From contig NZ_CP034145.1 in assembly GCF_003856835.1 (NCBI RefSeq), positions 682,001-746,000 of the forward strand: DNA of 64,000 bases, given 5' to 3'. Below the pieces are notes generated by a model, which was not told where the DNA came from, searched no databases, and was given only the letters and a program-made list of their open reading frames with translations. This DNA is from Haloplanus aerogenes. GTDB lineage: Archaea; Halobacteriota; Halobacteria; Halobacteriales; Haloferacaceae. Positions 3,771-60,679 of this stretch are shown here, one piece after another. Position 1 is the first letter of the stretch, and every line of letters begins with the position of its first letter. The position numbers and the translations under genes are program-made.

Positions 3771-5555
3771 TCAGCGCGCCCGCTCCGACACACGCATCTC
3801 GACGCCGGTCGTCGTGAACTCGAACCGTGCGCCACCCGCCGCTCCTTCGGTCACGTCGACTGCCCACCCGTGGGCCTCCGCGATGGTCCGGACGATGTTG
3901 AGTCCGAACCCCGTGCCTTCGGGGTCGGTGGAGTAGCCCGTCTCGAACACCTTCTCACGCTCCGACTCGGGAATGCCGGGACCGTCGTCCTCGATGTAGA
4001 AGCCGTCCGTCGTCCGCCCGACGGTGATCGTCACCTCGGGGGTGTCGTCATCGTCGTTCGCGTGCCCGCCTCGCCGGAAGTCTCCCGAGTCGGCCCCTTC
4101 GGCCGGCACGGGCGACGACTGGTTGTCCGCCCCACCGGCGTCGAGTGGGGTGTCGGTCGTCGTCGACGAGTCGGTGGAGCCGTGTTCGACGCTGTCGTCG
4201 GCCTCCGGTCGACTATCCGTGGAACCGTGTTCCACGCTATTCCGAAACAGGTTCTCGAACACCTGCGTGAGGCGGCTCTCGTCGGCTTCGACGGTTCCCG
4301 GGTCGCCGTCGAATCGGAGCCGTGCGTGTTCGGTGTCGGTGGTCGTCCACGCGTTCTCTGCGATCGAGCGGAGATCGACGGACTTGACGTCGTTTACCGT
4401 CCGACCGTATCGAGACAGCGTGAGCAGATCGTCGATCAGTTCGTCCATGCGGTCGAGCGCGCCCGCGATCCGGTCTAACCGCTCGTCGTCCACCTCCATC
4501 TGTACGAGGTCGAGGTTGCCGGTGGCGACGGTCAACGGATTGCGGAGATCGTGTGAGACGACGCTCGCGAACTCGTCGAGCCGCTTGTTCTGTCGGGCGA
4601 GTTCCTGTTCCCGGCGGGCGAGTTGCTCCCGGGCCGCCATCGAGTCGATGGTGTGGCCGATGCTCTCGCCGAGTTCGGAGAGCGCCTCTTGCTCCTGCGG
4701 ATCGAACGCGTTCACGCGGTTGGCGTAGACGCTCAGGAAGCCGTGGTTGCGGTTGGCGCCGACGAGGGGGACGACCGCCATCGACTCCACTCCCTTCTCG
4801 GCCAGCAGATCCCACCATGGCTTGAGGCTCGGATCGTCGAACACGTCCTGTATCGGCTGGATCTCGCCCGTTCGGATCGACTCGCCGCCCGGCCCCTGGC
4901 CGGTCGGATCGGTCGGATCGACGGTGACCTCCAGGGAGTCGATATACTCGTCGTCGTGACCCGCCCACGCCGCCGGTCGCACGAATTCGTCACCGGGCGT
5001 GTAGCGGCCGATCCACGCACTGTCGTAGATGTTGGAGTCGGTCAACCGCTCACAGACCTCCTGTTCGAGTTCACTCCGTCCGGTGGCGTTCACCATCTCC
5101 TGGGTCGCGATGCGGAGCGTGTCGTTGATGCGGGTCAACTGCTCCGCTCGTCGCCGCTGACACTGCCCGCGGGCGTCGTAGACACCGACGACGAGGCCGA
5201 CGAGGGCACCCAGAGTCGTGGCGTTGCCCACCGTCCGCGCTGCCGCCGGCACATCCTGTCCGCGAATCGCGGCGTCGACGAACAGCCAACCGACCGCGAC
5301 GCTCAGCGCCACCATCCCGACGGTGGTCCAGCCGAGCACCCGGTCGGCGTGCTGTGTCGGGGCGATGTCCCCCTCGCGGATCAGCGCACCTGCGCCCGCA
5401 ACGAATAGCGCCAGTGCTAGCGGGACGATCGCTTCGATCAGTACCAGTGCTGGAAACGCCTGTAAACGCACGGCTGACTGCAGGTGAAACACTGCGAGGA
5501 CGAGTCCGGCACCGCAGATGATCGTCCCGCTCGTTCGTGCGGACAGTCGTCCCAT
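3771..5555 (-). CDS. Membrane-anchored GAF-domain sensor histidine kinase
   Basis: 594 residues. Order: four predicted membrane helices (about 5-125), a GAF-like sensor domain (about 140-300), a dimerisation/phosphoacceptor domain with 'EFASVVSHDLRNPL' (about 325), then a HATPase domain with N-box 'ENLFRNSVEHGS', G1 'DDGPGI' and G2 'GTGFGLNIV'. The start at 5555 is favoured because a strong TATA box lies 30 bases upstream. A roughly 60-residue acidic, low-complexity insert follows the N-box and repeats the VEHGST motif (see repeat at 4173-4236). No response regulator is adjacent, which is common for haloarchaeal kinases. The signal is unknown. Confidence 0.9.
   Translation of the reverse strand: MGRLSARTSGTIICGAGLVLAVFHLQSAVRLQAFPALVLIEAIVPLALALFVAGAGALIREGDIAPTQHADRVLGWTTVGMVALSVAVGWLFVDAAIRGQDVPAAARTVGNATTLGALVGLVVGVYDARGQCQRRRAEQLTRINDTLRIATQEMVNATGRSELEQEVCERLTDSNIYDSAWIGRYTPGDEFVRPAAWAGHDDEYIDSLEVTVDPTDPTGQGPGGESIRTGEIQPIQDVFDDPSLKPWWDLLAEKGVESMAVVPLVGANRNHGFLSVYANRVNAFDPQEQEALSELGESIGHTIDSMAAREQLARREQELARQNKRLDEFASVVSHDLRNPLTVATGNLDLVQMEVDDERLDRIAGALDRMDELIDDLLTLSRYGRTVNDVKSVDLRSIAENAWTTTDTEHARLRFDGDPGTVEADESRLTQVFENLFRNSVEHGSTDSRPEADDSVEHGSTDSSTTTDTPLDAGGADNQSSPVPAEGADSGDFRRGGHANDDDDTPEVTITVGRTTDGFYIEDDGPGIPESEREKVFETGYSTDPEGTGFGLNIVRTIAEAHGWAVDVTEGAAGGARFEFTTTGVEMRVSERAR
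4173..4236 (-). repeat. In-frame duplicated VEHGST hairpin repeat inside kinase N-box
   Basis: Two copies spaced 45 bp apart encode VEHGST. The copy at 4218-4236 is a perfect 8-base-arm hairpin with a 3-base loop (CGTGGAAC-CGT-GTTCCACG); the copy at 4173-4191 is degenerate. The duplicated copy carries Asp-Ser in place of the N-box Asn and so cannot replace it. Confidence 0.7.
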
Positions 5556-8166: not shown

Positions 8167-8207
8167 GCCTCGGGGCTTGACCCCGAAGGTGAAGGCCGTA
8201 CGCTCCG

Positions 8208-8651
8208 CTAAACGTGTTCCGTGCGCTCGATATACTGCTCAATCGTGTTGGTCGAAACGTCGCCTCCCATCCCAACGTAGTACGATTCCTCCCAGAACCC
8301 ACCGCCCCACAGATACTCCTCCAAGAACGGTTCGTGCTGTTCCCACATCTCTCGTGCTGTGATGCTCTTGACCGTCCGTACAATCTCGCTCGGTGCGTGC
8401 TTCGAGTGAGCGGAGAGGAACAAATGTACGTGGTCGGGTGAGATGTGGAGCGACAGTATCTCGTAGCCATACTCGTCGCACACATCGCGGAGACTCGCTT
8501 CCAGCGAGTCTTCGATTGGTTCGAGGATGGCATGGCGGTATTTTGGACATTGCAAATCGGAGATTTGCAAGCAGTCAATCTCCGATTGACGACACCACAC
8601 GAAGTGGTAGTTGACGTTGTACACCGTGTGGTTCGACCGCTTCTCACCCAT
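8208..8651 (-). CDS. tnpA: IS200-type transposase TnpA (Y1 HUH) with an in-frame insert
   Basis: 147 residues. The HUH motif is 'PDHVHLFLS' and the probable catalytic Tyr is in 'IEQYIERTEHV' near the C-terminus, so both active-site elements are present. Family members usually read straight from 'HFVWC' into 'PKYRH'; here 15 extra residues ('RQSEIDCLQISDLQC' type) separate them, encoded by two small hairpins at 8550-8590. Whether the protein still folds is unclear because the insert lies in the first beta-hairpin region. Start ATG 8651 was chosen from the usual N-terminus 'MGEKRSNHTVYN'. TnpA would excise and insert the element as single-stranded DNA. Confidence 0.85.
   Translation of the reverse strand: MGEKRSNHTVYNVNYHFVWCRQSEIDCLQISDLQCPKYRHAILEPIEDSLEASLRDVCDEYGYEILSLHISPDHVHLFLSAHSKHAPSEIVRTVKSITAREMWEQHEPFLEEYLWGGGFWEESYYVGMGGDVSTNTIEQYIERTEHV
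8550..8590. repeat. Double 3-base-loop hairpin inserted in tnpA
   Basis: TTGCAAATC-GGA-GATTTGCAA at 8550-8570 and GTCAATC-TCC-GATTGAC at 8574-8590 are perfect hairpins with 3-base loops. Their cores are also reverse complements of each other. The inferred insert is 45 bp, so the reading frame is kept. The insert is AT-richer than the surrounding gene. Confidence 0.65.
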
Positions 8652-8704: not shown

Positions 8705-8841
8705 ATGACGAAACGACTGTCCGTGGACTTCGAGGATGACGTGTATAAGGAGTTCTCGAAGAAGTGCATCGAAGTTGATGAACTAAGTCCGACGTAGTTC
8801 GCGGACTCGTCAACGACTGGCTCAACGAATCCGAAGAATGA
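8705..8841 (+). pseudogene. Frameshifted ribbon-helix-helix-like accessory gene of the IS element
   Basis: ATG 8705 opens a frame reading 'MTKRLSVDFEDDVYKEFSKK', the start of a small CopG-like protein commonly carried between tnpA and tnpB in haloarchaeal elements. It stops early at a TAG (8798-8800). Adding one base near 8784 restores a frame ending '...VVRGLVNDWLNESEE' whose TGA overlaps the tnpB ATG (ATGA at 8838-8841). The simplest reading is a single-base deletion. The intact protein would be about 45 residues; its role in the element is not known to me. Confidence 0.7.
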
Positions 8842-10112
8842 CCGACACACAGGCTCTCATCAAGACGCTGGACTTCCAACTCGACATCCAGAGTGACAAC
8901 GAGAGCCTACTGTACGACGCCACCGTCGAAGCACGGTCGGTGTACAACGAAACCATCCGCCTCGCCAAAGAAGGTGTGGACTGGGACGCCATCCCCGACA
9001 GGGTAGCCGACGACGCTGACCTCGTGAAGAACACGACTCAGCGCGTCGTTGCGAAGGAACTCGGTGCGATGGAGAACTACTACGAGTACGACGACTTCGG
9101 CCAGCCGAGCCACACCAAGGACGGCGCGTATCCGCTTCGAGCAAACTACGAGGAGGGCTACAACCTGTCGCTCACCGACGATGGCAACGTTGCGTTCCGC
9201 ATCAGCGCGAAACCGTACAAACACGTCAAGGGCGTCCTCGACGGTGACGACGCCCACCTCGACATTCTCAAGACTGCCCTCACGAACGACGAGTGGAAGA
9301 TTGGGACGGCAGAAGCCCTGTTCCACAACGACAACGCCGAGTTGCACGTCAACGTCACCAACACCGAACAGACCGTCCGCGTCAAGCAGAACTCACGAAC
9401 GGTCGTCAGTGTGGACGTGAACGAGGACAACGTGGCTCTCACCGCGCTCTCAGAAGATGGCGTCGAGGACTCGTTGGTTATCGACTTCCCCGAAATCAAG
9501 TTCGAGCGCCATCGCTACTTCACGATGCGGAGGCGTGTGCAGAACGCGGGGAAGTCGAGTATGCACGATACGTTGGAAGGGCGTGAGGAACGGTTCGTCC
9601 GTGACCGACTCCACAAAGTGAGTCGTCACATCGTGGAGTGGAGCCGTCAGTTCGAGAAGCCGTGTATCGTCTTTGAAGACCTCAAAGAGATGCGCGACAG
9701 TATCGACTACGGTACGCGGATGAACCGACGCTTGCACCACCTCCCGTTCCGCGCCCTTCAGTTCTATACGTCGTACAAAGCGTCGTTCGAGAGGATTCCG
9801 ACCACGTGGATTAACCCCGAGTACACGAGTCAACGGTGTCCGATGTGCGGTCACACGGAGCGTGCGAACCGGAACAAGAAGCGGTTCAAGTGTCGGGGCT
9901 GTGGGCATCAAGACCACAGCGACCGTGGTGCAAGCGTCAACATCGCCGTGAAAGGCGTGAAGAAACTCGAATGGAATGTGCCTGCTCTCAACAGCCTTCC
10001 CCAAGTCAGGAAGGTGCGACGGCAGGCATCGGGGGTCGTGGACGCCCCGACCGTGACCCACCCGACCGACCGAGGCTATCAGGCCGATGGTCGAGTGGGA
10101 GTGTCCGACTAA
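8838..10112 (+). CDS. tnpB: TnpB RNA-guided nuclease of the IS200/IS605 element
   Basis: 424 residues. RuvC-type catalytic residues are visible as Asp in 'VVSVDVNEDNVAL' (about 194), Glu in 'CIVFEDLKEMRDS' (about 280) and Asp in 'DHSDRGASVNIA' (about 363). Between the last two lies the zinc ribbon 'CPMCGHTE...KCRGCGH'. Length and motifs match intact haloarchaeal TnpB. Work on related proteins showed that TnpB is guided by an RNA from the element's right end to cut the donor site and so preserve the transposon. Translation is coupled to the broken upstream accessory gene (ATGA overlap), which could lower its expression. Confidence 0.9.
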   Translation: MTDTQALIKTLDFQLDIQSDNESLLYDATVEARSVYNETIRLAKEGVDWDAIPDRVADDADLVKNTTQRVVAKELGAMENYYEYDDFGQPSHTKDGAYPLRANYEEGYNLSLTDDGNVAFRISAKPYKHVKGVLDGDDAHLDILKTALTNDEWKIGTAEALFHNDNAELHVNVTNTEQTVRVKQNSRTVVSVDVNEDNVALTALSEDGVEDSLVIDFPEIKFERHRYFTMRRRVQNAGKSSMHDTLEGREERFVRDRLHKVSRHIVEWSRQFEKPCIVFEDLKEMRDSIDYGTRMNRRLHHLPFRALQFYTSYKASFERIPTTWINPEYTSQRCPMCGHTERANRNKKRFKCRGCGHQDHSDRGASVNIAVKGVKKLEWNVPALNSLPQVRKVRRQASGVVDAPTVTHPTDRGYQADGRVGVSD

Positions 10113-16833: not shown

Positions 16834-18135
16834 TCAGGGATCGCTCGCGGCCGCCGATCCGCCGGCGACGGGGTCCGAACCGGGTGGTCGGGTCGGTTCC
16901 CGCGCTTCTTCGTGCTGCTCGTCCGCCGGGATGCGGTCGGCTCTCGGCAGCGTCACGGTCGCGATGGCGCCGCCGTCGTCGGCGTTGCGGACGGTGAACT
17001 CGCCGTCGTAGGTCTCGACGATCCATCGGACGAGCCAGAGACCGATGCCGTCGCTGTGCTGGAGCGCCGTCTCAGTCGCTTCGGCGTCGGCGTGGACGGC
17101 GAGTTCGGCGGGGGTGAACCCCGGGCCGTCGTCCTCGATGCGGAGTTCGACGGCGTCTCGCTGTCCTCGTCGCTCGACCGGACGGACGGTCACTCGGAGC
17201 CAGGGGTCGTCGGTGCGTTCCGCGGCGTCGTCGCGGTCAGCGCGCCGACTGCCCGTTGCCCCGTATTCGACGGCGTCACCAGACTGCGTCTGGTTGCCTG
17301 TCGAACCGCGTTCGACAGCGTCCTCGGGAGTCGGCGACCGGGGGTGCGTGGAGCCATGTTCGACGGCGTTCCGAAGCAGATTGTCCACGACCGACGAGAG
17401 GAGGTCGTTCGCTTCCACGTACGCGTCCTCGATATCCGTCTCGACGGTCACGGTCTCGGTCGAGCGCCGGAGTTCGTCGAGGCGGTCGCGCACGAGTGCC
17501 CCGAGGGCGACCGGCTTCGTCTCCGTCGTCGAGCCGAGCTCGTCGAGCCGGTTCGCGGCGCCGCTCAGGCGTTCGATGTGTTCGAGTTGCTCGCGGATCA
17601 CGTCGGGTGACTCCGGTGGCGACGAATCCGTACCGGTCACGAGGTCGAGGTGGCCACGGATCAGGTTGAGGCTGGTTCGGATATCGTGGCGAAACAGCCG
17701 CAGAAACACGCTGTTGCGCTGGTTGAGCGTTCGCGTCCGTTCGTGTTCGGCGCGGAGTTCGAGGAGGGAGCCGACGAGGACGCCAACGACTCCGCCGGCC
17801 GCGATGTTGACGAGGACGACGCTTCGCCACCCGACGCCCCTGAGTACCGACGGCATCAGCAAGATGACGAGGACGGCCACCAGCGTCGGCAGACCGAGGC
17901 CGAGCGTCGACCACCCGGCGACCCGCCAGACGCGGTCGTCGTCGAGCGTACTCTGAGCGAGCCCGATCCCGGTCACGAGGAAGCTCCCGGCGATCATCCC
18001 GCCCATGCTGAGGCTGAGCAGCGACCGTACTTCCGTGGACTCGATCGGAAGGAGGACCCCGGCGCTGCAGACGCCGAACAGCACGACGCCCACGCCGATG
18101 AGATAGCTCACCCCGAGGTCTCCCTTCGACACCAT
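16834..18135 (-). CDS. Membrane sensor histidine kinase with repeat-expanded N-box
   Basis: 433 residues. About four membrane helices (10-125), a short linker, an H-box ('LRLFRHDIRTSLNLIRG', about 146-162) and a HATPase domain with N-box 'VDNLLRNAVEHGS', G1 'EDDGPGF' and G2 'SDGIGLWLVRWIV'. There is no PAS or GAF domain, so sensing is probably by the membrane region. Between the N-box and the next strand about 60 extra residues contain degenerate copies of VEHGST spaced 15-16 residues apart (repeat at 17255-17364). The C-terminus is a Pro/Ala/Glu-rich tail. No response regulator is adjacent. Confidence 0.88.
   Translation of the reverse strand: MVSKGDLGVSYLIGVGVVLFGVCSAGVLLPIESTEVRSLLSLSMGGMIAGSFLVTGIGLAQSTLDDDRVWRVAGWSTLGLGLPTLVAVLVILLMPSVLRGVGWRSVVLVNIAAGGVVGVLVGSLLELRAEHERTRTLNQRNSVFLRLFRHDIRTSLNLIRGHLDLVTGTDSSPPESPDVIREQLEHIERLSGAANRLDELGSTTETKPVALGALVRDRLDELRRSTETVTVETDIEDAYVEANDLLSSVVDNLLRNAVEHGSTHPRSPTPEDAVERGSTGNQTQSGDAVEYGATGSRRADRDDAAERTDDPWLRVTVRPVERRGQRDAVELRIEDDGPGFTPAELAVHADAEATETALQHSDGIGLWLVRWIVETYDGEFTVRNADDGGAIATVTLPRADRIPADEQHEEAREPTRPPGSDPVAGGSAAASDP
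17255..17364 (-). repeat. Three VEHGST-type hairpin repeats inside the second kinase
   Basis: Units at 17348-17364 (VEHGST), 17300-17316 (VERGST) and 17255-17271 (VEYGAT) are spaced 48 and 45 bp apart. The middle unit is a perfect 9-base-arm hairpin with a 3-base loop, CTGTCGAAC-CGC-GTTCGACAG (17298-17318). A fourth, weaker copy ('AAERTDD') follows about 45-48 bp further on. Confidence 0.7.
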
Positions 18136-38762: not shown

Positions 38763-40211
38763 ATGCGCCTCCACTGGCACCGGACGGATCTGCGGCCATC
38801 GGACAACCTCGCGCTGGTGAGCCCCGATGACAGCGAGGAGCCACGCTCCTCGGGGAGCCGGCCTCCGGCCGGCGACGACCCGATCCTCCCGGTGTACGTT
38901 TTCGACCCGAAGATTCTCGACCACGCCGCCCCGCCACGCGTCGCGTTCGTCCTCGACAGCCTCGCCGCCCTCCGCGAGTGGTACCGGGACCGCGAGAGCG
39001 ACCTGCTCGTGGTCCGCGGCGAGGCGCCCGCCGAACTCGCCCGCCTCGCCGACGACTACGGGGTCGACACAGTGTCGTGGGCGCAGGCCTACTCCGGATT
39101 GGGTCGACGCCGGGACGACCGGGTGGCCGACCACCTCAACGAGATGGGCGTCGAGACCCGCATCGTCCACGACCACCTCCTCCACGAACCGGGGTCGATC
39201 ACGACGAACGCGGGGGAGCCGTACTCGGTCTACAGCTACTTCTGGAAGAAGTGGAAAGATCGGGAGAAACGGGGATCGGTGCCGGGGCCGGGCGCGGATC
39301 GACTCGCCGACCCACCGCACGACACACCGATCCCCACGCTCGACGACCTGGGCTTCGACCGCCCCGAAGCCGAGATTCCGCCCGGCGGCTACATGGAGGC
39401 GCGGCACCGCCTCAACGACTTCTGTTCGGACGACATCTACCGCTACGAGGACGCCCGCGACGACCCGGCGGCGAACGCCACTTCCCGGCTCTCGCCCCAC
39501 CTGACTCACGGGACCGTTGGCATCCGGACGGTCCACGACCGGGTGGTGCGCGCCCGCGAGACGGCGCCCAACGACGCGACTCGGGAGGCGGTCGAGACGT
39601 TCCGCGGCGAACTCGCGTGGCGGGAGTTCTACCACCACGTCCTCTACTTCAACCCCGAGGTGGTGACCGAGAACTACCGCGACTACGAGAACCCTATCGA
39701 GTGGCGCGACGACCCCGAGGCTCTACAGGCGTGGAAGGACGGCGAGACGGGCTATCCCATCGTCGACGCCGGGATGCGCCAGTTGCGCGCGGAGGCGTAC
39801 ATGCACAACCGCGTGCGGATGATCGTCGCCTCCTTCCTCACGAAGGATCTCCTGATCGACTGGCGCGAGGGGTACGACTGGTTCCGGCGGAACCTCGTCG
39901 ACCACAACCCCGCGAACGACAACGGCGGCTGGCAGTGGGCCGCCTCCACGGGCACCGACGCTCAGCCCTACTTCCGCATCTTCAACCCGATGACACAGGG
40001 CGAGCGTCACGACCCCGACGCCGAATACATCCGCGAGTACGTGCCCGAACTCCGGGGCGTCGACGCCGATCTGATCCACGACTGGCACGACCTCTCCCCG
40101 ACCCAGCGCCGGCGGACGGCGCCCGATTACCCGGCGCCCATCGTCGAGCACAGCGAGCGCCGGGAGCAGGCGCTGGCGATGTTCGAACGAGCGCGGGGGG
40201 AAGACGACTAA
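38763..40211 (+). CDS. phr: Deoxyribodipyrimidine photolyase (class I) with small hairpin insert
   Basis: 482 residues. Start 'MRLHWHRTDLRPSDN' is the typical photolyase N-terminus. The FAD domain shows 'SRLSPHLTHGTVGIRTV', 'ELAWREFYHHVLYFNP', 'DAGMRQLRAEAYMHNRVRMIVASFLTKDLLIDWR' blocks and 'NDNGGWQWAASTGTDAQPYFRIFNP'. It splits cyclobutane pyrimidine dimers using blue light. Residues about 21-40 ('SPDDSEEPRSSGSRPPAGDD' region) are an in-frame insert encoded by a double hairpin, just before the usual 'ILPVYVFDP'. The insert is in a surface loop of the chromophore domain and probably tolerated. Convergent with azlC. Confidence 0.93.
   Translation: MRLHWHRTDLRPSDNLALVSPDDSEEPRSSGSRPPAGDDPILPVYVFDPKILDHAAPPRVAFVLDSLAALREWYRDRESDLLVVRGEAPAELARLADDYGVDTVSWAQAYSGLGRRRDDRVADHLNEMGVETRIVHDHLLHEPGSITTNAGEPYSVYSYFWKKWKDREKRGSVPGPGADRLADPPHDTPIPTLDDLGFDRPEAEIPPGGYMEARHRLNDFCSDDIYRYEDARDDPAANATSRLSPHLTHGTVGIRTVHDRVVRARETAPNDATREAVETFRGELAWREFYHHVLYFNPEVVTENYRDYENPIEWRDDPEALQAWKDGETGYPIVDAGMRQLRAEAYMHNRVRMIVASFLTKDLLIDWREGYDWFRRNLVDHNPANDNGGWQWAASTGTDAQPYFRIFNPMTQGERHDPDAEYIREYVPELRGVDADLIHDWHDLSPTQRRRTAPDYPAPIVEHSERREQALAMFERARGEDD
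38829..38876 (+). repeat. Paired 3-base-loop hairpin element in photolyase gene
   Basis: Hairpins CGAGGAGC-CAC-GCTCCTCG (38834-38852) and GCCGGCC-TCC-GGCCGGC (38857-38873), both perfect, joined by GGGAG-type linker sequence. It begins GACAGCGAGG and ends CCGGCGAC, as does the copy in azlC. In frame with phr, in sense orientation. Confidence 0.75.
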
Positions 40212-40986
40212 CCCAACTGACCCCGGAACAGCAACACGGCGACGACGCCCACCACCAGTGCGAGGAGGACGCTGTCGGTGCGGTGCGCGACTAGCACGAC
40301 GGCCACCCCGGCGGCAGCGACTCCCCACGGCGCGACCGAGCGCCGCCCCGGCCAGAGGCCGGCCGCGATGGTCAGAAAGACCGCCGTCAGGACGAAATCC
40401 AGCCCGTAGCGCGCGGGGTCGCCGATGGCGCTCCCCGCCACCGCGCCGGCGACGGTCGCGACGATCAAGAACGCCCAGATAGCCAGTCCGCTCCCCAGCA
40501 GGAACGCGCCCCGGCCGCTCCCGTCGCGGAGGTCACGCACCGTGAGCGCCCAGTTCTCGTCGGTGATGAAGAAGACGCTCGCGTACGTCTCCAGCGGCGA
40601 CAGCTTCTCGAACCACGGCCGGAGGGCGGCGCCCATCAGGACGTACCGGAGGTTGATGACGAAGGTGGTGAGCAGGACGGCCACGACCGGAATGGGCGTA
40701 TCCCAGAGTTCGACGGCGACGAACTGGGCGCCGCCGGCGAGGACGGTGGCGCTCATCAGCGCCGCTTCGGTGACGCTCAACCCGACGCGACGGGCGAGCA
40801 TCCCGAACACGAGGCCGTAACCGGCGACAGCGAGGAACGACGTTCCTCGGGCAGCCGGTGCGACGCGCCGGCGACGCCGAGCGCGACGGGGAGGCAGGCC
40901 ACGACCCCCGCCCACGCGTCTCCGGCCGCGAACGTCACGTCGTCGTCGGCAGACGACTCAGTCCCGGTGGAGGGCTCGGCGGACAT
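40208..40986 (-). pseudogene. AzlC-family amino-acid/permease gene disrupted by a 47-bp hairpin insertion
   Basis: The first part reads from ATG 40986 ('MSAEPSTGTESSADDD...AWAGVVACLPVALGVAG') and then shifts frame. The rest continues in another frame as 'VAGYGLVFGMLARRVGLSVTEAAL' through the AzlC core ('GGAQFVAVEL', 'NLRYVLMGAALRPW', 'FITDENWAL') to 40208. Removing 47 bp between two copies of CCGGCGAC restores a continuous AzlC protein of about 240 residues. AzlC with AzlD exports branched-chain amino acid analogues; no azlD follows. A late in-frame start could still yield a shortened protein, but loss of function is likely. Confidence 0.75.
40821..40875 (+). repeat. Paired hairpin element with 8-bp flanking direct repeats in azlC
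   Basis: CCGGCGAC occurs at 40821-40828 and 40868-40875, 47 bp apart. Between them are CGAGGAAC-GAC-GTTCCTCG (40831-40849, perfect) and GCCGGTGC-GAC-GCGCCGGC (40854-40872, one mismatch). The element is antisense to azlC. The flanking repeats look like a target duplication. Confidence 0.75.
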
Positions 40987-56308: not shown

Positions 56309-57309
56309 AGCAGGGCGTCGAGGAGGCGATCGTTCTCGTTGGGCCGGCGGACGGCGACCCGGACGTGCGAATCGAGGTCGCGGAAGGTGGTCGCGTCCCG
56401 TACGACGATCCCTTCGCGCCGGGCGGCGTCGATCACCTCGCTCACCGATCGGTCGTGAACACCGAGGAGGAGGAAGGGTGCCTCGGAGGGGTAGACCTCG
56501 TACGCGGCGGCGAGGCGGTCGGCCATACGCTCGCGCTCGCGGCGCACCCGGTCGCGCGTCTCGGCGACGAACTTCGTCTGGCGGAAGCAGTACGTCCCCA
56601 CGTCGGCCGCGGGCGTCGAGAGCCCCCAGACCGGCCGAGCGGCGTCGAGTCGCTCGCGCAGGCCGTCCGTCGCGACGGCCAGCCCGGCCCGAAGTCCGGG
56701 CAGGCCGAAGATTTTGGTCAGCGACCGCGCGACGATGACCCCGGGTTCGCCAGCGAGCGTCCGCCGGTCGGTGAAGTCGAGAAACGCCTCGTCGACGACG
56801 AGAACGGTGTCCGCGGCGCGGCACTGCTGGGCGAACGCCAGCAGGTCGGCCTGCGGGTAGCCGTCGCCAGTCGGATTGTTCGGGTTACAGACGACGACTA
56901 CGTCGTACGGCGACGGGTCGGTCCCGAGGATTCGGTCGTGGGCGATAAACGTCGGATCGACGCCCTGCAGTCGCACCTCGCGTTCGTACTCCGCGAAGCT
57001 CGGTTTCGGGAGGAGTGCATCGTCGCCCGTCTCCAGTGTCACCTCGAACGCGAGGCGGAGCGCCCCGATGCCGCCGGCAGTCGGGGCGACGTTCAACGGT
57101 TCACACCCCAGATACTCTCCTGCGGCGGTCCGGAACTCGCAGTAGTCGTCGCCGGGATACTGTGTCGCGGCGCCGTACGCCGATTCGTAGACACCCGCGA
57201 TGCCCCGTGGTCGCTCCGGATTCGTGTTGGCACTGAAATCCAGGAGCGTCGAATCCGACGCCCCCCCATGTGGCACGCGCGGTACGTCGGCCACGGCGTC
57301 AGGGTCCAT
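56305..57309 (-). CDS. cobD: Threonine-phosphate decarboxylase-type aminotransferase
   Basis: 334 residues, PLP fold type I. PLP-Lys is in 'VARSLTKIFGLPGLRAG' and the Asn/Asp of 'VVCNPNNPTGDGYP' and 'VLVVDEAFLDFTDRR' are conserved. The N-terminus 'VPHGGASDSTLLDFSANTNP' is typical of CobD. It makes (R)-1-amino-2-propanol phosphate for the lower loop of cobalamin. It could alternatively be histidinol-phosphate aminotransferase, but the operon supports CobD. Overlaps cobT by 11 bases. Confidence 0.88.
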   Translation of the reverse strand: MDPDAVADVPRVPHGGASDSTLLDFSANTNPERPRGIAGVYESAYGAATQYPGDDYCEFRTAAGEYLGCEPLNVAPTAGGIGALRLAFEVTLETGDDALLPKPSFAEYEREVRLQGVDPTFIAHDRILGTDPSPYDVVVVCNPNNPTGDGYPQADLLAFAQQCRAADTVLVVDEAFLDFTDRRTLAGEPGVIVARSLTKIFGLPGLRAGLAVATDGLRERLDAARPVWGLSTPAADVGTYCFRQTKFVAETRDRVRRERERMADRLAAAYEVYPSEAPFLLLGVHDRSVSEVIDAARREGIVVRDATTFRDLDSHVRVAVRRPNENDRLLDALL

Positions 57310-58330
57310 GCGAGTCGATAAGACGCTCCATTACCTCAAGCGTTCCGTCGGCAACGCGCCCGAGCGCGCCCGCACGCTCGGCTAGCCGGAGCGCACCGCC
57401 CATACCCGCACCCTCCTTCGCTTCCCCCGCGGCGTAGCGAGCGAGCGCGTCGTCCCGCCCGGCGAAGCCGGGGTCGGTGACGACGAGGTCGCAGTCGAGG
57501 GCCTCGGTCGCCGCCGACAGATCGGCATCGGCGGCGACGTACGTCGTCGCCGCGACGGTCAGCGGCGCTGCGACGCCGGCATGACGGAGCAGCGCGGCAG
57601 CGGCGAGCATCTGTGTCCCGCCACCGAGCACCACCTCGGTCCCCGACTCCAGTGCCCCGGCGGTGAGTCCGGCGACGACCGCCAGCACCGGGTCGCCCAG
57701 AAACCGGACGGCGAGTTCCGGGTGGTAGGCCGCCTCGCCGGGCGCAACGTCGCTCGCCTCGAACGCGGCGTCGATCACCTCCCGTTTCAGGTCGAGCGGA
57801 TTCTCCGGCAGCGACGACGAAACGGTGATACCGACGGCTTCGCCGTCTTCTCGAGGTGTCTTCGACACCTCGCTGACCCCGAGCGCCCGACAGACCCCGA
57901 GTGCGGTCGTAGTGCCGCCGGGAATCGTCTCGCCGATCACGAGTTCGTCGTCGGGGAGCGCGCGCCCGAGGTCGCGGGCGGCGACCCACGCCCCCGGCGC
58001 GGTCGGCACCGGATCGACCTCGCGCACGTCGCGGCCGGGTTTCGCGCCCACGTCGACGGTCGGTGCTCCGGTCGGCTTGGCGAGGCCGGCGTCGACGACG
58101 AGCGTCTCGAATCCGACCGCCTCGCGGACCGCGCGGGTGACGGCCGCGGGCGTCGGACATCCCGTCGGACTCACCGGAACCTCCGGTGCGCGCACCAGAC
58201 GGCCGTACTCGATCAGTTCCGCGTCGGCGCTCGGCGTGTGGGGCAGGAGGTTGGGGTCGGCACCGGCGGCGCTGATGCCGTCGATCCGCGCCGTCGCCGT
58301 CGTTCCGGCGACGAGGACGAACCGCGTCAC
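57299..58330 (-). CDS. CobT-type nicotinate-nucleotide phosphoribosyltransferase (TIGR00303-like) with hairpin insert
   Basis: 343 residues. Features: 'VVDAGLAKPTGAPTVDVG', 'DDELVIGETIPGGTTTALG', 'VLGGGTQMLAAAALLRHAG' and 'DPGFAGRDDALARYA'. Related proteins activate the lower ligand base for cobalamin. After 'GVCRALGVS' about 15 residues ('EVSKTPREDGEAVGIT') are extra compared with what I expect of the family; they are encoded by a paired hairpin element (57830-57876) and keep the frame before 'VSSSLPENPLDLK'. The activity is probably retained, but this is untested. Confidence 0.83.
   Translation of the reverse strand: MTRFVLVAGTTATARIDGISAAGADPNLLPHTPSADAELIEYGRLVRAPEVPVSPTGCPTPAAVTRAVREAVGFETLVVDAGLAKPTGAPTVDVGAKPGRDVREVDPVPTAPGAWVAARDLGRALPDDELVIGETIPGGTTTALGVCRALGVSEVSKTPREDGEAVGITVSSSLPENPLDLKREVIDAAFEASDVAPGEAAYHPELAVRFLGDPVLAVVAGLTAGALESGTEVVLGGGTQMLAAAALLRHAGVAAPLTVAATTYVAADADLSAATEALDCDLVVTDPGFAGRDDALARYAAGEAKEGAGMGGALRLAERAGALGRVADGTLEVMERLIDSHGP
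57830..57876 (-). repeat. Paired 3-base-loop hairpin element in cobT-like gene
   Basis: Two perfect hairpins, GACGGC-TTC-GCCGTC (57833-57847) and CGAGGTGTC-TTC-GACACCTCG (57852-57872). On the minus strand it begins GTCAGCGAGG and reads like the elements in phr, azlC and cbiB. Sense orientation, in frame. Confidence 0.75.
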
Positions 58331-58884
58331 GACAGCGCCTCCGCAATCTGCAGGTCGCGCGGGCGATTCACGTTCACGGCGAGTCGGGCATCGTCGCTGA
58401 CGTATATGTCGTCGTCGGTTGCCGCGACGACGTTGATCCCGGTCGGCGCGAGTTCGCGTCCGTCGCGCTCGAACGTCGTGTCGACGCTCACCCCTAGCCG
58501 CCGCTTCAGGTCGACGGGTACTGCGACGGCGAGCGAGTCCTCCGCCCGAGCCAGCACGCGATTCACCGACTCGGTGGTGAGGAGGGGTACGTCGGCGGCG
58601 ACGGTCAGCGCCGGACGGCCGATCCGGTCCAGCGCGGCCGAGAGGTCGTCGACGTATCCGTCGCCGGGCGTCTCGACGACCGTGATGCCCGGATTCGACT
58701 GTAGATGCGCGCGCGTCCCGGGCGCGTGCGGCGAGACGGCCGCGTACACGCGGTCGACCCGACTCGCGGCGAGGGCGTCACACACCCGGTCGACCATGGG
58801 CGTTCCATTCACCGCAACGAGCGGTTTTTCGACCGCTCCGCCGAGTCGTGTCCCTTTCCCGCCGCACATCACCAGAGCGTCCAC
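58327..58884 (-). CDS. cobY: GTP:adenosylcobinamide-phosphate guanylyltransferase
   Basis: 185 residues from GTG 58884. The nucleotidyltransferase signature is 'VMCGGKGTRLGGAVEKPLVAVNG' (about 5-27) and Asp in 'LTVAADVPLLTTESV'. In archaea this enzyme replaces bacterial CobU in activating adenosylcobinamide phosphate. Its start overlaps cobS by 16 bases. Complete. The terminal 'VNVNRPRDLQIAEAL' is a family motif. Confidence 0.88.
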   Translation of the reverse strand: MDALVMCGGKGTRLGGAVEKPLVAVNGTPMVDRVCDALAASRVDRVYAAVSPHAPGTRAHLQSNPGITVVETPGDGYVDDLSAALDRIGRPALTVAADVPLLTTESVNRVLARAEDSLAVAVPVDLKRRLGVSVDTTFERDGRELAPTGINVVAATDDDIYVSDDARLAVNVNRPRDLQIAEALS

Positions 58885-59618: not shown

Positions 59619-60679
59619 GCGGCGATCACCCCCACGGCCGCCAGCCCGAACGCCAGCCATCCGGCCCGTGAGACGACGGCGACGCCACGCTCGGCGGCCG
59701 CGCGCGTCGGCAGGTCGTCGGACCCCGTCCGACTGTCACCGGCTTCGCTCACCGGACTGCGTCCGGTGGTCTGAGGGACGTCGTCCCTCTCTGCCCGAGG
59801 CGTCTCCGACGCCTCGCTGTCGCCGGACCGTGTCCGGCTTCCGGCGGTGCGTCGCACCTCCTCGTCCGGGGACCGTCGATCCTCGATCAGGTCGTACGCG
59901 CCGGGCTTGCTCAGCCGAACGCCCAGTACGACGGCGAGCGTCGCCATCGGCCATCCGGCGTTGGGTGAGGCGGGTCGGCGAGCGAGCGGACGGGCGCGGC
60001 GGAGGGCGTCGGGCCGCCCCGCGGCGACGGCCAGCAAGCCAGCGCTCGTGCGTGCGGGAATCCACATTACCACGTCGTCGAGGCGGGCGGGCGCCCAGCC
60101 CATCGGCACCGAGCGGTAGCCGAAGGTGGAGTCGAGGGTGTTGACGGCCTTGATCCACGCCGCGGCGCCCGCGGCCGCCGGGAGCGAGAGCGGCGCGAGG
60201 AGGGCGAAGCCCGCGAGTGGGGCGACGAGGCCGTCGCTCAGGTTCTCTGCGGCGCTCTCGACGGCGGCGCTGCGCACCTCGCCCGCGGAGAGGGCGGCGG
60301 CGTCCCGGCCCGCGAGCGAGCGCAGGCGCTCCCGCGCGGCCGCGAGGTCCGTCTCGCTCGCGGCGACGACGGCGCGTGCCTCGTCCAGCAGCATCCGCCG
60401 ACTGGTCGAGACGAAGCAGGCGAGGCCGGCGAGGGCAGCGCCGACGAGCGGGTCGAGTCGCATCCCGAGGGCGACGACGACGGCGACGACGCCCGCGGCG
60501 GCGAAGGGGACGAACAGTGCCGTGGCCACTCCGGCCAGTCGCGGGTGGGACCATTCGCGGTCCAGTGGGCCGAGCGCCCGGCCGAGCCACGCGACCGGGT
60601 GGAGGGACGCGGGGGGTTCGGCGACGAGGCGGTCCCCAACCGCGGCGAGGGCGACGCTCCCGGCGGCGAGGAGGGTCAC
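59612..60679 (-). CDS. cbiB: Adenosylcobinamide-phosphate synthase with a hairpin-array insert
   Basis: 355 residues. The membrane-protein core has 'LAAVGDRLVAEPPASLHPVAWLGRALG', 'WIKAVNTLDSTFGYR' and 'PARLDDVVMWIPAR'. Near residue 270 a long hydrophilic stretch of about 60 residues ('RSPDEEVRRTAGSRTRSG', 'ASETPRAERDDVPQTTG', 'SEAGDSRTGSDD') replaces the usual short loop. It is encoded by an array of at least six 3-base-loop hairpins (59717-59858) and returns to the family's final helix ('AVVSRAGWLAFGLAAVGVIAAC'). The frame is intact. It attaches aminopropanol to cobyric acid. Confidence 0.87.
   Translation of the reverse strand: MTLLAAGSVALAAVGDRLVAEPPASLHPVAWLGRALGPLDREWSHPRLAGVATALFVPFAAAGVVAVVVALGMRLDPLVGAALAGLACFVSTSRRMLLDEARAVVAASETDLAAARERLRSLAGRDAAALSAGEVRSAAVESAAENLSDGLVAPLAGFALLAPLSLPAAAGAAAWIKAVNTLDSTFGYRSVPMGWAPARLDDVVMWIPARTSAGLLAVAAGRPDALRRARPLARRPASPNAGWPMATLAVVLGVRLSKPGAYDLIEDRRSPDEEVRRTAGSRTRSGDSEASETPRAERDDVPQTTGRSPVSEAGDSRTGSDDLPTRAAAERGVAVVSRAGWLAFGLAAVGVIAAC
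59717..59858 (-). repeat. Six-hairpin array (all with 3-base loops) inside cbiB
   Basis: In plus-strand order: GTCGGAC-CCC-GTCCGAC, CACCGGAC-TGC-GTCCGGTG, GAGGGAC-GTC-GTCCCTC, CGAGGCGTC-TCC-GACGCCTCG, GCCGGAC-CGT-GTCCGGC and GGTGC-GTC-GCACC, at 59717, 59750, 59773, 59796, 59822 and 59846. All arms are perfect. The fourth is preceded on the minus strand by GACAGCGAGG, the shared element start. Confidence 0.8.

Follow-up and report, generated by a model that had tools for sequence, protein, structure and literature searches.

The window, a stretch of 64,000 nucleotides of the Haloplanus aerogenes genome, carries an IS605-type element in which a tnpA gene adjoins a divergently oriented tnpB gene. 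The tnpA gene contains an in-frame insertion made of two DNA hairpins. The features of the locus are listed below.

8168-8189, minus strand: end palindrome of the IS element on the tnpA side, empty in the window
8208-8651, minus strand: tnpA with its insert, an open frame of 147 aa for an IS200-like Y1 transposase; PF01797 (Y1_Tnp), E 3.4e-32
8546-8549, minus strand: TGTC copy on the 3' side of the window element (coding strand)
8550-8594, minus strand: 45-bp insertion in tnpA, delimited by alignment with empty relatives and made of the 41-bp double hairpin plus one TGTC copy; encodes about 15 extra residues, RQSEIDCLQISDLQC
8550-8570, minus strand: second hairpin on the coding strand, TTGCAAATC-TCC-GATTTGCAA, 9-bp arms
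8574-8590, minus strand: first hairpin on the coding strand, GTCAATC-GGA-GATTGAC, 7-bp arms
8591-8594, minus strand: TGTC copy on the 5' side of the window element (coding strand), which may be a repeat of the target or belong to the element itself
8838-10112, plus strand: tnpB of the same IS605-type element; 424 aa; PF07282, E 3.3e-16

An earlier note on this DNA had described a 45-bp in-frame insert splitting the HFVWC-PKYRH junction of TnpA, with two perfect hairpins whose cores are mutual reverse complements. Its coordinates and geometry were exact: two perfect hairpins with 3-nt loops and arms of 9 and 7 bp lie at 8550-8590, and the cores AATCGGAGATT and AATCTCCGATT are indeed reverse complements of each other. 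The plus strand reads TTGCAAATC-GGA-GATTTGCAA at 8550-8570, GCA between the hairpins at 8571-8573, and GTCAATC-TCC-GATTGAC at 8574-8590. Read along the coding strand, the element is TGTC-GTCAATC GGA GATTGAC-TGC-TTGCAAATC TCC GATTTGCAA-TGTC, at a place where tnpA relatives without the insert have GGTGTCCGAAG. Since the same TGTC stands on both flanks, 45 bp were inserted in frame relative to the empty gene, and this length is the same whichever TGTC copy is counted.

Folding of the element as single-stranded DNA gave -11.9 kcal/mol for the coding strand (z -4.7) and -12.6 kcal/mol for the other strand (z -5.6), and none of 200 shuffles folded as well. The window contained seven such double hairpins, three of which are overlapping pairs within one four-hairpin run, compared with 0.05 expected from 20 first-order Markov shuffles. 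A stricter count, covering 464 kb of this genome with the window among them, found nine double hairpins against two in one second-order shuffle, so that the size of the excess varies with the null model. No match to Rfam 15 above the gathering cut-off was found in the window. A plain IS605 end or PATE was ruled out, the insert being unlike the IS end palindrome and lying inside tnpA.

The window TnpA retains the columns that are invariant among 32 aligned relatives. Because the insert is open and in frame, the protein would gain a 15-residue surface loop; in an AlphaFold2 model (mean pLDDT 71.7), strands 8-20 and 39-41 are joined by a loop that contains the insert, predicted at low confidence. 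An open insert in such a loop is also what ordinary protein-level variation, meaningless at the DNA level, would produce. This reading is contradicted by the paired arms, by the class-wide element family, by the fold z-scores of both strands and by the arm covariation of the site-1 copy in L025, and we find it scarcely credible. The same genome holds two other Y1_Tnp matches, one covering nearly the whole model with no stop and one partial.

Precise insertion at four sites of haloarchaeal tnpA

A protein scan of the genome collection with TnpA returned 80 relatives, of which 66 were aligned with the window copy (67 rows) after nine non-haloarchaeal and five fragmentary loci had been left out. 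Inserts occur at four sites. Site 1, the HFVWC|PKYRH junction, is filled by 45 bp in 6 of the 67 rows (the window, L002, L003, L004, L025 and L059), and the 15 extra residues are thus carried by a minority of the relatives with which the earlier note had proposed to compare them. Site 2 (CPK|YRH) holds a 51-bp insert in 9/67 rows, with one more insert of 50 nt in L067. Site 3 (EILS|LHI) holds 54 bp in 14/67 rows (53 in L059), a count in which L061 is placed differently by the aligner and an N run in L076 is left out. At site 4 (HPK|HAPS), 54 bp are present in 3/67 rows (55 in L063). All other rows lack an insert or are too short for a decision, and some genes hold two inserts at once.

The presence of the inserts is scattered. 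On a tree of the tnpA core (65 rows, L076 and L078 being dropped; 14 of 62 inner branches well supported), sites 1-4 require at least 6, 5, 11 and 3 changes, respectively. L002 (site 1 filled) is 98.0% identical to the empty L024, to which L052 (sites 3 and 4 filled) is 98.5% identical; L035 (site 2 filled) shares 97.5% identity with L023 and L034 (site 3 filled) 96.2% with L013.

Each tnpA site has its own element class, one to one, and the same insert is found in many genera. Both observations would follow if a few old insertions, one per site, had spread by recombination or gene conversion and been lost elsewhere, with little present mobility; because each site has its own class, spread between IS copies may apply. 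Against this, a filled copy and its most similar empty relative agree to within a short distance of the site: the nearest differences beyond it lie at -75 and +33 for L034 and L013, and at -10 and +42 for L052 and L024, the first 1-3 bases beside the site being blurred by alignment edges. The loops and arms discussed below bear on the same question.

Inserts at sites 2 and 3 often bring a stop codon and break tnpA. The TGATCA spacer of the site-3 element gives an in-frame TGA, eight copies stopping at residue 60, and a TAG is present in 6/9 site-2 copies. Stop-bearing copies are frequently intact otherwise, and their dN/dS relative to the nearest clean copies has a median of 0.10 (24 comparisons, 12 copies), compared with 0.076 between clean copies (58 comparisons); these ratios do not separate recent death from tolerated inserts. 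Removal of the insert from the message would explain such intactness, the hairpins then acting in the tnpA mRNA through intron-like excision or, in another form of the same idea, through translation control. However, the same elements are found in untranslated IS ends and elsewhere, and clean copies with single stops exist (L012, L032, L041, L047), which makes recent inactivation simpler than RNA removal. We consider an RNA-level role very improbable, and recent inactivation of the stop-bearing copies is the simplest reading. Bulge-helix-bulge splicing of the insert was rejected, inspection of the junctions by eye, with no program, having revealed no such pairing.

Double hairpins also occur in the loop of the tnpA-side end palindrome in nine relatives (L005, L006, L011, L025, L026, L056, L059, L062 and L067), some of them decayed or incomplete.

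The window's own (site-1) class is rare. Its seven distinct rows are all fully paired and include two compensated pairs, both in L025. A search with the site-1 pattern, allowing up to 3 mismatches, gave five matches in 4/194 genomes, all inside tnpA. A model of the class, R2, matched 42/145 genomes, mostly weakly; outside tnpA, matches with E below 1e-12 were restricted to genome G021, while G108 and other genomes gave weaker matches. The earlier note had suggested looking for the insert elsewhere in the genome. Across haloarchaeal genomes, related elements were found at other sites of tnpA, in tnpB, in IS ends and elsewhere. In the window's own genome, R2 detected no copy besides that of the window. 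In G021 (L160, 1039-1290), about eleven successive hairpins with 3-nt loops form one run beside IS/PATE-end-like sequence.

The 54-bp class: target and hypervariable loops

One 54-bp plan is common to the elements of site 3, site 4, tnpB and the IS end palindromes. It consists of TCGTY or TGGTT, an 8/3/8 hairpin, a TGATCA-like spacer, a second 8/3/8 hairpin and an ACGA end. The arms covary: an alignment of 25 copies had 99.5% of its 400 cells paired and 44 cells changed on both sides, compared with 10.7 +/- 2.5 in shuffles. A covariance model of this class (R1; E up to 0.001, about 39 candidates scored per genome, a near-symmetric element being able to match on both strands) matched 141/145 Halobacteria genomes. 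In a sample of the phylum, all 24 Halobacteria members were matched versus 11/124 other genomes, where matches were mostly weak (E above 1e-7). The sole strong signal outside Halobacteria came from three genomes of one genus (G316, G325 and G332), with 27-34 matches and E near 1e-10.

The best 30 R1 loci (L107-L136) comprise four at tnpA site 3, four in tnpB and, by flank inspection, at least seven in IS/PATE end palindromes, the rest lying in other places; Rfam 15 gave no match at the 54-bp element in 20 of these 30 loci. With the flank letters left free, G precedes and C follows the element in 31/31 distinct flank pairs, some of these being the two strand readings of a single site. That the G and the C belong to the target is shown by empty sites, for example GGGGTCAAG^CCCCGAGG. 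From the flanks and the empty sites together, the 54-bp class inserts between the G and the C of a G^C dinucleotide and duplicates no target bases, a rule shown for this class rather than for the site-1 class of the window. The elements form a compact, structure-defined family in nearly every sampled haloarchaeal genome, with an exact target rule for the main class.

Two side observations concern single loci. In L115, L130 and L134, the 54-bp element (1501-1554) occupies one conserved locus and its loops differ in each genome. In L113, a CRISPR repeat array (2149-2309) is found at a distance of about 600 bp from the element (1501-1554).

The loops are hypervariable. Pairwise comparison of 13 site-3 copies gave a difference of 1.9% for the arms and 63.5% for the six loop bases, compared with 8.5% for the ends and spacer and 26.3% for the third codon positions of tnpA. 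The loops are close to random, and for the two hairpins they are exact reverse complements in 12/78 and 6/78 pairs. Given 1.9% against 26.3%, the arms are either much younger than the host gene or under far stronger constraint. This contrast counts against the spread of a few old insertions, as does the occurrence of the 54-bp class in many unrelated places, and we regard that scenario as quite unlikely. We infer recent and repeated arrival of near-uniform elements, with loops that change on or soon after arrival; the alternative for the loop/arm contrast is that the arms are constrained and the loops free. A GNA loop or its complement TNC was found in 152/255 distinct hairpins (uniform expectation 12.5%) and in 45/118 lone hairpins of the same sequences, so the excess is partly compositional or derived from decayed elements. 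In DNA, loops of the C(GNA)G type have very high stability.

GC-rich cousins in host genes

GC-rich double hairpins with the geometry of the window element sit in host genes. The likeness of geometry had been pointed out in the earlier note, and it is common to the GC-type double hairpins of the window. The following lie in open frames:

4192-4241, minus strand: GC-rich double hairpin
17278-17318: GC-rich double hairpin
38829-38878, plus strand: GC-rich double hairpin
40826-40877, plus strand: GC-rich double hairpin
57828-57877, minus strand: GC-rich double hairpin
59750-59838, minus strand: GC-rich run of four hairpins

According to Pfam, the genes concerned encode a photolyase, a CobD/CbiB protein, histidine kinases and others. 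R3, a GC-type model built from four copies of the window's own genome, gave at least 45 matches with E below 1e-5 in that genome (150 of 9103 candidates scored). By a codon-composition heuristic, 14 of the best 20 R3 matches are in frame inside genes, some being adjacent units in one gene. One unit is inside the gene at 57302-58777, to which Pfam assigned no family name and which we take to resemble a cobalamin-pathway phosphoribosyltransferase. Among its 15 orthologs in relatives, the whole 14-residue segment is missing in 10, about six residues are kept in two, two others are three residues shorter, and one is full length with letters changed. In the same genome (G000), L200/L211 and L204/L209 contain adjacent in-frame GC-type units that yield repeats, DSEEPRSSGSRPQAD being an example; next to these units the peptide VEHGST is found repeatedly.

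Mode of movement and known systems

The earlier note had raised the idea of a non-autonomous hairpin element whose place inside a Y1 transposase could indicate how it moves. The first half of this idea is supported, as close relatives lack the element, its presence is scattered over the tnpA tree, and related elements exist at other places; movement by TnpA is not supported. Y1_Tnp (PF01797) was detected in 100/145 Halobacteria genomes. R1 matches were present in 43/45 genomes without it, ten or more in 21/45, and a resident TnpA is therefore not needed for carriage. The median number of R1 matches was 7 without Y1_Tnp versus 11.5 with it, and the correlation with Y1_Tnp copy number was weak (Spearman 0.28). 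It is possible that the R1-bearing genomes without Y1_Tnp formerly had a TnpA since lost, or have a Y1 relative missed by the Pfam model. The location in tnpA fits a preference for IS605-type targets at least as well as a TnpA mechanism.

A REPIN-like pathway, in which TnpA or a RAYT-like Y1/HUH relative cuts and joins the folded strand and the elements parasitise the kind of transposase they occupy, would agree with several observations: the inverted hairpin doublet, as in REPINs (PMC3116915), the lack of target duplication in the 54-bp class, the favoured places in IS605-type elements and the weakly positive correlation just mentioned. The abundance of R1 matches where no Y1_Tnp was detected argues against it, as do genome G080, with four Y1_Tnp matches and no R1 match, and the GC-type cousins inside host genes. 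We judge this pathway unlikely, with a real chance nonetheless.

Our preferred reading, which we consider probable, makes the insert a single member of a superfamily of mobile double-hairpin elements in haloarchaea, short (41-58 bp) and non-autonomous, with 3-nt loops and precise insertion, the folded strand being inserted in trans. Within IS605/IS1341-type transposons and PATEs, such elements would insert exactly at favoured positions (end palindromes, tnpA and tnpB), and their GC-rich cousins would land in frame in host genes. The rarity of the window's own class, whose strong matches outside tnpA come almost solely from G021, counts against this reading. The moving form would be a folded single strand, presumably ssDNA, RNA being less likely, and an enzyme would insert it in trans. 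A more far-reaching version seems to us possible, if on balance doubtful: a superfamily with precise insertion (at G^C in the main class) and in-frame reading through transposase and host genes, with no resident Y1, in which the 3-nt loops are rewritten, often inverted, at or soon after insertion and the arms are copied faithfully. If true, loop rewriting with faithful arms would point to a new folded-strand (ssDNA or RNA) insertion pathway; rewriting on insertion would involve a hairpin-processing step not found in the open-access literature searched.

The best reading among known systems is a REPIN/DHE-like element with IS605-type elements as favoured targets, close to SMR-A of Haloquadratum; membership in SMR-A, REPINs or the mitochondrial double-hairpin elements is established for none of the three. 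In the open-access literature, subscription papers being outside the scope of the search, only PMC3119063 describes something near. The SMR-A small mobile repeats of Haloquadratum walsbyi, reported in 2011, move in a way called 'enigmatic'; they are about 110 bp long with prominent inverted terminal repeats, form three families in one species with high identity within a family, and lie mostly outside transposase ORFs (PMC3119063). Compared by description only, the two share their targets (as seen for related classes), the absence of duplication (as seen for the 54-bp class) and an enigmatic mover, whereas SMR-A are about twice as long and uniform, and the portion of PMC3119063 describing them makes no mention of a double-hairpin form, variable loops or in-frame copies. 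Unlike the approximately 110-bp SMR-A with their inverted terminal repeats, the window element measures 41-45 bp and the main class 54 bp, with longer hairpin runs in G021. The lack of duplication is seen in the 54-bp class, whereas the window copy has the 4-bp direct repeat TGTC; targeting of near-terminal IS605-type/PATE palindromes is seen in related classes, whereas the window copy lies in tnpA. As close relatives differ in whether a site is occupied and loops diverge far faster than arms, the 'enigmatic' mobility becomes testable in cultivable haloarchaea.

REPINs resemble these elements in being inverted pairs of short hairpins, non-autonomous, with single-strand folding proposed (PMC3116915 and PMC3733652); two inverted hairpin units with a short spacer are found here. 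REPs have GTAG or CGTC tags, are mostly extragenic and tied to RAYT transposases, and are also known within ORFs (same papers). Here, in contrast, a Y1 gene appears unneeded for carriage and IS605-type elements are favoured targets. The GTAG tag is absent, and in several classes the first hairpin follows CGTC or TCGTY, a possible counterpart of the CGTC tag.

The double-hairpin elements of Allomyces and other mitochondrial hairpin elements consist of two hairpins with no flanking duplication, insert in genes, have conserved stems and differing loops, and form multi-hairpin runs (PMC2800124). Set beside the haloarchaeal elements by description only, they differ in being mitochondrial and in having no IS605 link. 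The likeness in two stem-loops without flanking duplication holds for the 54-bp class and does not imply common origin. Rickettsia palindromic elements are bacterial, generally longer and not known to be tied to IS605 elements. Like the GC-type cousins, they are palindromic inserts lying in frame in protein genes (PMC3733652).
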